This document shows, in pieces, positions 31,115 through 33,571 of a stretch of 64,000 nt of DNA. Below the pieces are notes generated by a model that was not told the origin of the DNA, searched no databases, and was given only the letters and a program-made list of their open reading frames with translations. The position numbers and the translations under genes are program-made. Numbering within the stretch: the stretch's first letter is position 1; each line of letters begins with the position of its first letter. The stretch comes from Stentor roeselii (lineage: Eukaryota; Ciliophora; Heterotrichea; Heterotrichida; Stentoridae), in contig RSEH01000038.1 in assembly GCA_006503475.1 (NCBI GenBank), forward strand, positions 141,253 to 205,252, written 5' to 3'.

Positions 31115-31840
31115 TTAAATATACAAAACATCAGCTTCTCCGGGGTTGAATCTTTCCCAAACCCTGGCACAAGCCAAGGCAAGAATTTCCTCTTCTTTAC
31201 TACACTGCCTGATAACAACCCTGCACTTATTCTCGCTGATTTCAATGCAGCAATGGTTATCCCCCTGCGTATTGACAAACATTTCATACCTTTCGCTGTA
31301 TCCGAAGCGTCTGACTTCAGAGTTTCGACTTCCCCATTCTTTCAGCTGGCATACAAACCCGAAGTTCGGGTCAATAGTAGGTTGCGACGCCAAAAGACAG
31401 TTATAAGCTTCCTGCTCCGAATAGCCCCTCGCCATCAAATAAGCCAAAACCACAGCAGCTGCTCGGGAAGTGCCCTTCACACAATGAATAAGCACTTTTC
31501 CTTTACCACTGACACTTTCTAGTATAAAGTCAAGGGCAAAGTACAGGAAAAACAAGATGTCGACCTTCGGATTATCAGGCATTTTCATTGAAAAATACTG
31601 CAAAACACTGGAAAAGCAATTCGGACATTTCGACTCACCTGCCAAGTTCAACACATGAGTGATGCGAGCAGAACTCAGGACTTCCCAGTCTTTAGCAGCT
31701 TCGTATCCTGAGATGAAGATGTTCGGCAGGACCTCGAAGACCTTTGCAGAGACTTTCGGCTCGTTTGTAAAGCTTTCAACAGAAACTTTTAAAGTAGGGG
31801 GCCTGAGCCGAGCTTTGCGTGGGATTGTTTCGGTAGACAT
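31115..31840 (-). CDS. Dual-specificity protein phosphatase
   Basis: A 241-residue phosphatase. The catalytic loop is HCVKGTSR at residues 119-126 (HCX5R, nucleophile Cys120, Arg126). The general acid is probably Asp89 (MPDNPKVDI). The usual DSP start lies at ~38-48 (VLPNIFISGYEAAKDW). After the domain comes a ~75-residue extension (RRFGYSERYEMFV...VLYI) that resembles a single gelsolin-like module, as in plant MKP1, but I hold that loosely. DSPs of this group inactivate MAP kinases; a MAP3K-like kinase lies 4 kb away. Confidence 0.9.
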   Translation of the reverse strand: MSTETIPRKARLRPPTLKVSVESFTNEPKVSAKVFEVLPNIFISGYEAAKDWEVLSSARITHVLNLAGESKCPNCFSSVLQYFSMKMPDNPKVDILFFLYFALDFILESVSGKGKVLIHCVKGTSRAAAVVLAYLMARGYSEQEAYNCLLASQPTIDPNFGFVCQLKEWGSRNSEVRRFGYSERYEMFVNTQGDNHCCIEISENKCRVVIRQCSKEEEILALACARVWERFNPGEADVLYI

Positions 31841-31864: not shown

Positions 31865-33214
31865 TTAAAACTCACGGAATCGCCTTCCAGCTACTGTTGT
31901 TCCCAGTCGAGGACTCCTGGTTTTTGATGACAAGTTGATTATGTTGGAAAGGTCGAGCACGTAGTTTAAAGGAGTCTTTACTCGAGGAGTCGGGTTTTTG
32001 TATTGTCTGTGAACTGAATGATTATTACCGAGACTTGCGGGCAGAAGGCTGCTGGGAATCGCGTAGGATGTGATTGGACGGTAAGAGACTGGAGAGTTTG
32101 ATGTTCCCATTGTTCGGTTCCTTGAATGTTTTTCTAATTTTTCTGGAATTGCTTCTGAAAGGTTTTGGGATCTTCGGAGTTTTAAGGCTTCTGGAAGCTT
32201 TTTACCGGCCTTTCGCATGTGGACTAGAAGACGGTAGGCTGCGGTTCCTGGGTTTGGCTTTTGGAGGTTTTCTTTTAGAGATTGGATGTTGTAGCCGAGA
32301 GATGTTAGTTTTGATAGGATTTCTTCCTCGTTTTCGACCTTTTCTGGCTGGTAGACGTCTTTTATGTTGTGGTGCTTTGTGAACCAGGGATGATTTCTGA
32401 TCTTGTCTATTGTATAACGCTTTTCAGGGTCAGTCACCAAAACCTTCCTAAGCAAGTCAGTAGCTTCTACACTGACCCAGTTCGGTATCTTAAACTCACC
32501 TCCAATGATTTTTTTGTATAAGTTCGAGGTATTATTATCTTCAAAAGGCAAATACCCACAAAGCATAGCAAACAATATAACCCCACAACTCCAAACATCA
32601 ACCTGTGCCCCATGATATCTTTTTCCAGCAATCATTTCAGGGGCAGCATAGCAAGGACTTCCACAAGCAGTTTTTAAAGTTTCGCCATTAGGATAAAGGT
32701 TACTAAGTCCAAAATCAACGATTTTGATTGACTTTTTATGATCAAGTAGTAAGTTTTCAGGTTTCAAGTCACGATGAACAATTCTAAGCTTCTGAAGGTA
32801 CTCAAGTCCAGAGAGTATCTGGGCAAGGTACTTGCAAGACTCATGTTCATTGAGTCTATGCTTAGCGACAATATAATTGAAAAGTTCTCCGCCTTCAGCG
32901 AGTTCCATGACAAGCAGCAACTGTTTCGAGGTCTCAATAATTTCATAGAGTTGTATGATGTGAGGATGATTCACCTGCCTAAGGATCTTTATTTCTCTTG
33001 AGACTCTTTCAGAGTCACCTCTCGTCTTGATTTTGTCTTTTTCCAGGATTTTGACAGCGACTTTTGAATTCAAAATTGAATGAACTGCCATTCTGACCTT
33101 TCCAAAAGTGCCTTTACCAATCGATCTTCCAAGAATGTAGTTTCCAACGACATTGGACTGGTTCTCTGCTCGGGTTTCTAAACTGTTGGACCGTGACCTG
33201 CATGAAGATTACAT
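31865..33214 (-). CDS. SNF1/AMPK-related protein kinase; start codon split by a 15-bp intron
   Basis: CDS is complement(join(31865..33197, 33213..33214)), 444 residues. The first two bases AT (33214-33213) join G of 33197 to make ATG; the mature start is MSRSNSLETRAENQ. Only then is the glycine loop GKGTFGKV (28-35) complete. Other motifs: VAVKIL, HRDLKPENLL, DFGLSN, GSPCYAAPE, DVWSCGVIL. A UBA-like segment follows the kinase (NEEEILSKLTSLGYNIQSL), as in SNF1/SnRK/MARK kinases. The C-terminal ~100 residues are basic and Ser-rich. These kinases sense energy state or polarity. Without splicing the message reads ATG TAA. Confidence 0.92.
33198..33212 (-). other. 15-bp intron inside the start codon (AT|G)
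   Basis: On the minus strand it reads GTAATCTTCATGCAG, A at position 10. Exon 1 supplies AT (plus any 5' UTR); exon 2 begins GTCACGG. Unspliced RNA also reads ATG at this point, but with TAA as the next codon. Confidence 0.8.
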
Positions 33215-33274
33215 CTGAAATTAAATTATCTTATTTGAATGACTGGGAAAAATTAGCCGTGATTGGAAGATAAA

Positions 33275-33571
33275 TTAATCATCATCGTTTTCCTCGGATT
33301 TGTAGGTGCAACCATAAAGACACGCCGTGAGGCAGTCTTCAGAGGTTTTAGTCCCTGGAGCCCTTGCGAAGAATTTCGACCAGGCGGGCTTCGCTTCTTC
33401 TTCGCCGCCGATTTCGTGCTTGATGCAAAGATTTGAACAGTAATCAGTCTTGCATTCGATGATGCCTCCGTCACTGTCACAGGCTTTTTTACAGAAAAGA
33501 CGGCCTGGGTTCGCAGGGCCGTATTCTTGGTTACAGGCTTGATAACACTCGCTAATGTTGAAGACTGACAT
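33275..33571 (-). CDS. Small cysteine-rich protein
   Basis: A 98-residue protein with ten cysteines: CYQAC, CKKAC, CKTDYCSNLC and CLTACLYGC, in a roughly regular spacing. There is no signal peptide, so it may be a cytosolic or intermembrane-space metal-binding or disulfide protein rather than a secreted one. The C terminus is acidic (SEENDDD). No family is recognised. It is divergent from the zinc-finger gene at 33589 with 17 bp between starts. Confidence 0.6.
   Translation of the reverse strand: MSVFNISECYQACNQEYGPANPGRLFCKKACDSDGGIIECKTDYCSNLCIKHEIGGEEEAKPAWSKFFARAPGTKTSEDCLTACLYGCTYKSEENDDD

Follow-up and report, generated by a model that had tools for sequence, protein, structure and literature searches.

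Introns that disrupt the start codon, i.e., that lie in phase 1 or phase 2 of codon 1, have been described as relatively uncommon, and most of all so in plants (Nielsen and Wernersson 2006, PMC1626468). In Yarrowia lipolytica, the 5' splice site of 42 introns directly follows the A, the T or the G of the start codon, a class in which split codons are mixed with introns lying just past the ATG (PMC13309789). Heterotrich introns (Stentor and Blepharisma) are 15 and 16 nt long (PMC9942806, PMC11441545). Here we analysed a 64,000-nt stretch of Stentor roeselii DNA (henceforth the window), in which a 15-nt intron appears to divide the initiator codon of an SNF1/AMPK-like kinase gene, together with the related kinase loci of the same genome.

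An earlier note on this DNA had described such an intron, and the letters and coordinates it gave are correct: the minus strand of the window reads ...TTTAATTTCAG AT GTAATCTTCATGCAG G TCA CGG TCC..., with AT at 33214-33213, the 15-nt intron at 33212-33198 and the G at 33197. The features of the locus are:

33213..33214, minus strand: AT, bases 1 and 2 of the initiator codon and end of exon 1 (from sequence)
33198..33212, minus strand: predicted 15-nt intron GTAATCTTCATGCAG, phase 2, inside the initiator codon (from sequence and consensus comparison)
33203, minus strand: A at intron position 10, presumed branch point (from intron comparison)
31865..33197, minus strand: exon 2, with the initiator G (33197), the remaining SNF1/AMPK-like kinase and the stop codon TAA at 31867-31865 (from sequence and from Pkinase and AMPK alpha-1 matches)
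33089..33091, minus strand: Met37, the first in-frame ATG following the split one, downstream of the glycine loop (from translation)
33221..33223, minus strand: in-frame TAA, codon -3 relative to the split ATG, which closes the upstream frame (from sequence)
33215..33274, minus strand: 60-nt gap up to the upstream ORF, without ATG (from sequence)

Removal of 33212-33198, a splicing event that we predict from the sequence, gives ATG TCA CGG... and a 444-codon frame whose protein starts MSRSNS. The glycine loop (GKGTFGKV) runs from residue 28 of this spliced protein and 36 residues precede Met37, the next methionine, which bears out the earlier claim that splicing opens a 36-residue N terminus completing the loop. 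The note had also read the unspliced RNA as a Met-stop, and RNA retaining the intron does read ATG TAA; the retained intron of the window gene additionally holds a second, out-of-frame ATG that opens a 29-codon frame. With the in-frame TAA upstream and the ATG-free gap, the letters likewise support the note's proposition that an intron divides the initiator codon, and an intron placed between the bases of the first coding codon would put the gene in the start-codon-disrupting class. The 60-nt gap is a possible upper limit of the 5' leader, provided that neighbouring transcripts do not overlap, and because it holds no ATG, a leader that stays within it would contain no AUG ahead of the spliced one. 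We rejected a reading of the TTTCAG directly before the ATG as the 3' splice site of an upstream or trans-spliced exon, as this string is absent from the 12 other clear upstream sequences (see below). Scans of the window against Rfam and for tRNAs found nothing.

The product is a protein kinase (PF00069, Pkinase, E-value 7.6e-80). Its closest solved structure is AMPK alpha-1 (E-value 4e-84, residues 17-329), and in the ranking of solved structures the first 16 rows are AMPK alpha or SNF1-like ssp2, followed by MARK kinases; by kinase-domain likeness the window gene is thus predicted to encode an SNF1/AMPK-like kinase. Two further reading frames flank it on the minus strand: a gene for a dual-specificity phosphatase (PF00782, E-value 1.3e-22; 31115-31840) begins 24 nt past the kinase stop, and a cysteine-rich ORF of 98 residues without a Pfam match (33275-33571) lies 60 nt upstream of the split start codon.

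We searched the whole genome (44.4 Mb in 522 contigs) for relatives of this kinase. From 1268 first-look candidates the protein search yielded 95 scored kinase matches and 30 loci, and the 23 best loci were taken as the family, with the cut chosen after seeing a gap in E-values from 1.3e-105 to 1.1e-86. The earlier note had treated the split start as a property of one gene, and this was not borne out: AT, a 15-nt GT..AG intron and G stand in the kinase frame at 13 of these 23 closest SNF1-like loci, the window included (L002, L003, L005, L007, L008, L009, L010, L011, L012, L015, L019, L020 and L021), which rules out that the window's arrangement is unique. Nine loci have a contiguous ATG (L004, L006, L013, L014, L016, L018, L022, L023 and L024; the start of L014, for example, reads ATGGAACAATC). 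The last of the 23, L017, reads AT, GTACCAAATATCTAG and G, with GTAC replacing GTAA, and its unspliced sequence ATG TAC CAA ATA TCT AGG stays open; judging from these letters, L017 (protein P0174) may be a 14th split start whose spliced and unspliced mRNAs could both be translated in frame. Inspection of the oriented loci revealed no split start among seven weaker loci (L025-L031); one of these, L030, had been flagged as split between A and TG, and the intron proved to be located in the glycine-loop region, not in the start codon. An alternative genetic code was ruled out as well, since the 23 kinase ORFs stop with TAA (13), TAG (6) and TGA (4). That the split recurs in a dozen relatives of the window's kinase gene suggests an arrangement passed down by descent and not an isolated oddity.

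The surroundings of the split codon are similar throughout the family. At all 13 clear split loci the frame is closed by a stop 1 to 22 codons ahead of the split codon and holds no other ATG between the two, and residue 2 of the spliced protein is S, T or A; an additional in-frame Met before the glycine loop occurs in L010 only. In ten of the 13, the 60 nt ahead of the split codon are free of ATGs in any frame. At the others, the upstream ATGs run into a stop after 4 codons (L003), after 2 (L010) or after 14 and 17 (L011), so the split AUG is possibly not the first AUG in those three mRNAs, and, given leaders of sufficient length, the short frames would serve as upstream reading frames. In L010 the upstream frame is ATG AAA TAA, 15 nt upstream of the split ATG.

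The start introns also follow a common consensus. GTAA and an A at position 10 (A10) are found in all 13 clear cases, although neither was imposed by the search pattern (GT[AG]N10AG), and A10 is also present in L017. A second intron position, between the E and the I of the kinase-domain motif YE|IIET, is common to 11 of the 23 loci (L008, L011, L014, L016, L017, L018, L019, L020, L021, L022 and L024), which indicates that intron positions are inherited in the SNF1-like kinase family. These internal introns have A10 in 11 of 11 cases, again not imposed, and GTAA in 9 of 11; eight other internal introns that we compared had been chosen with A10. With its 15 nt, its GT...AG ends and an A10 like that of the internal introns, the window's start intron therefore has the predicted make-up of a heterotrich 15-nt intron. 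Left unspliced, the YE|IIET intron adds five residues in those cases where it contains no stop, and database entries P0161-P0165 carry the corresponding YEV...QIIETP insertions. Past the consensus, the start introns share little sequence by eye, except those of L011 and L019 (GTAACTGCTAAAAAG and GTAACAGCTAGACAG).

We then asked how often the arrangement would be expected by chance. The pattern AT|GT[AG]N10AG|G was counted at the 23 loci in the 150 nt that precede the glycine loop. It was present 14 times (counting L017), always in the frame that gives an in-frame ATG, against 0 times in either of the other frames and 0 times on the reverse strand, and dinucleotide shuffles of these regions yield 0.01 matches per set. 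Among 80 ORFs in 124 kb of DNA (the window and six 10-kb samples; stop-to-stop frames of at least 150 codons, all frames), just one had an A10 site near its 5' end, and this was the window gene.

Protein entries from other heterotrichs provide a further comparison. Two Blepharisma stoltei proteins (P0009 and P0017) start MSRSSS, compared with MSRSNS in the window, MSRSTS in L003 and MSRSHS in L012, and the S. coeruleus protein SteCoe_33028 (P0180) starts MSGESNQQ, compared with MSGENQSS in L020; all three are thus annotated from the Met that splicing would create in this genome. By contrast, in S. coeruleus the orthologue of the window protein (SteCoe_27778, P0004; 69% identical) starts at the homologue of Met37, which is what a split start overlooked in annotation would produce. 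The alignment with other heterotrichs that the earlier note had named as a check divides at the protein level: the MSRS-S and MSGE starts agree with the spliced Met, whereas P0004 is annotated from the later one. Other entries also start behind the glycine loop, both in the window group (P0002, P0003, P0005 and P0007) and in the L003 group (P0010, P0021, P0023, P0026, P0033 and P0048; P0023 has 100% identity to L003 over 91% of L003). Entries of this kind are unspliced, as can be seen from the five residues of YE|IIET intron sequence retained in P0161-P0165, so that beginning behind the loop only means that no contiguous in-frame ATG precedes it. Exceptions, which count against the reading favoured below, are the uninterrupted starts ahead of the loop in P0006 (window group; 67% identical to the window protein), P0011 (L003 group; 80% identical to L003) and P0163, P0164 and P0166 (L019 group). 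Another relative of L019, P0165, begins LIFRALASDYNNK, i.e., three residues, R, and then ALASDYNNK; its protein letters fit a frame that would open directly after the stop (TAA) in a start intron left unspliced. Some S. coeruleus entries with differing N termini count against that favoured reading as well: P0073 and P0108, sisters of the split locus L007, are annotated with other ones, and P0106, a sister of L008, starts at a Met within the L008 N terminus. Blepharisma genes were predicted with Intronarrator (PMC9942806); for Loxodes, introns called by Intronarrator from RNA-seq were taken out first, and genes were then called on the resulting intronless assembly (PMC11441545). Such a procedure could recover split starts.

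Taken together, these observations favour an ordinary 15-nt intron in the initiator codon, most likely spliced constitutively, ancestral to most of the paralogues and lost several times, a reading that we hold to be probable. Exon 1 would be a short leader of at most about 60 nt that ends in AT, and exon 2 would open with the G. Splicing, most likely constitutive, would assemble the AUG, from which the ribosome would make the whole kinase starting MSRSNS...; RNA left unspliced would carry AUG-UAA and give no kinase. The start intron would have been present in the ancestor of most paralogues, and several losses would have produced the contiguous ATGs.

A bolder version holds that the start intron predates the Stentor-Blepharisma split, has been selectively kept across the family and gates translation of these kinases, and that gene finders overlook it, current annotations carrying truncated kinases that lack their loop. 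We consider this combination rather unlikely. If the start intron is indeed old and selected, however, the splicing of a minimal 15-nt intron would act as a translation gate for a set of energy-signalling kinases.

The earlier note had gone further in calling correct splicing an on/off switch that intron retention could regulate. That correct splicing is needed for the full kinase follows from the sequence itself, and this part stands, as retention would be null (AUG-UAA); regulation does not follow from it. In a regulated switch, retention of the start intron would keep the kinase mRNAs untranslatable until splicing releases them, e.g., according to nutrient state. This would agree with the AUG-UAA that retention produces in all 13 clear cases, with the additional out-of-frame ATG and 29-codon frame of the retained window RNA, and with the concentration of split starts in one signalling family. 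However, any 15-nt phase-2 intron that starts with GTAA, wherever it is placed, brings a TAA into frame on retention, so the splice-site consensus suffices to explain the stop. Moreover, L017 (GTAC), which is readable either way, indicates that the retention stop is not kept in every member, the 9 of 23 loci with a contiguous ATG indicate that the split arrangement is not required for this type of kinase, and an ATG within the start intron occurs in only 1 of the 13. We therefore regard regulated retention as improbable, and an intron spliced without regulation as the more plausible reading of the sequence.

How the start introns came to be distributed over the family was examined in a tree of 39 kinases, in which 23 rows from this genome were labelled (13 split and 10 contiguous, with L025 included and L017 left out). 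Several clades with good support contain the split state; the group of L013, L014, L016 and L018 lacks it. The tree requires a minimum of 6 changes of state, compared with 7.7 for shuffled labels (40 of 300 shuffles gave values as low or lower), and these numbers together with the scattered states indicate that the split state is labile.

The distribution must also be set against the frequency of such introns outside the family. Genome-wide, the pattern ATGTAAN5AN3AGG has 218 matches, compared with 67 for the reversed pattern. We read 71 sites among 100 of the 218 matches (6 + 40 + 20 + 5 kinase; the 40-site batch was hand-chosen, 37 of its sites having YAG ends), and 8 kinase sites lie among the other 118 matches. 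A start was called likely only when no stop interrupted its frame in the sequence read, a rule that misses short second exons and makes the resulting rate a rough one. Among the 71 sites were 5 kinase initiators and 1 other likely initiator (L100); the remaining ones were internal Met codons, other phases, chance matches, unassigned sites, or sites 5 to 9 codons past another ATG. Outside the kinases, 66 AT|G sites were thus read, and L100 alone among them is likely to be an initiator, no in-frame ATG lying ahead of it; this suggests that start codons are no general hotspot for introns. On contigs C1-C185, a site lies just upstream in 5 of 12 family members and in 0 of 37 more distant kinase matches (i.e., those of 72 that are located on these contigs). 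As far as sampled, the split start is concentrated in the SNF1/AMPK-like kinase family.

Other candidates from this survey were, except for L100, rejected as split initiators. Five coiled-coil-like loci (L038, L041, L083, L090 and L100) share the motif K-E-[RK]-L-Y-[ED]-E-N and a 15-nt intron that splits an ATG at about codon 6 or 7; part of the L041 protein had no Pfam match. As a second split-initiator family this group was dismissed, since 4 of the 5 have an in-frame ATG 5 or 6 codons upstream, and L114 was dismissed in the same way (in-frame ATG 9 codons upstream). Lacking such an upstream ATG, L100 would use the split codon as its initiator, which suggests one way in which such starts may arise.

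Given this background, the simplest account is one ancestral start intron with several losses, because position and phase are identical, such introns are rare elsewhere in the sample and a second intron is shared by 11 of the 23 loci; common descent of the start intron thus appears preferable to its repeated gain. Had the start codons of this family instead acquired 15-nt introns several times independently at the same site, one would expect the scatter of split and contiguous states over the tree and start introns alike only in consensus, both of which we see (bar L011 and L019 for the latter). Yet the rarity of start-codon splitting outside the family (L100 alone among the 66 non-kinase sites) and the identical phase and position throughout, along with the shared YE|IIET intron, favour inheritance, and we give repeated gain only a low probability. 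Finally, the possibility that nothing is spliced at all, i.e., that the AT|G match is due to chance and translation starts at Met37, at a non-AUG codon or in an upstream exon, would fit the public annotations of close relatives that start behind the glycine loop, but we find it highly improbable in view of the missing glycine loop of a Met37 protein, the 14 in-frame matches against 0 in the control frames and strand, an intron consensus that was not imposed, and an N-terminal likeness that in some members reaches the spliced Met.

If ancestral, constitutive splicing of the start intron is confirmed, it would account for some database entries of these kinases being without a glycine loop, and the 13 or 14 split genes, with 9 contiguous siblings as controls, would form a test set for splicing-gated translation in heterotrichs. 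The case is also a warning for annotation, as spliced start codons are beyond at least one gene finder (Tiberius), which states its inability to predict them (PMC11645249). As for novelty, which the earlier note had suggested for heterotrichs, our literature search yielded no split initiator in this group among the matches listed; start-disrupting introns as such are known elsewhere, if rare (PMC1626468, PMC13309789). Confirmation would make these genes, among the literature matches listed, the first family-wide set of initiator codons assembled by splicing of 15-nt introns.

Compared with known SNF1/AMPK catalytic subunits, the window kinase is similar in its activation segment (LKTACGSPCYAAPE) and in having AMPK alpha-1 as its best solved relative, and this genome differs in holding at least 23 close loci, 13 of them with a split initiator. 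The start intron has the length of the 15-nt heterotrich introns, whereas the papers describing these (PMC9942806, PMC11441545) do not mention placement in a start codon in their main texts, where the words 'start codon' occur 0 times. In Yarrowia lipolytica the median intron is 196 nt, against 15 nt here, and inheritance within a single family is not described in the sections of that paper on start-codon introns (PMC13309789). The closest parallel in kind is the class compiled from vertebrate, arthropod, plant and fungal GenBank and genome sets (PMC1626468), in which spliceosomal introns lie inside codon 1, as in the window kinase; what sets the present case apart is that the introns have 15 nt and occupy an identical AT|G site at 13 of the 23 loci of one family.
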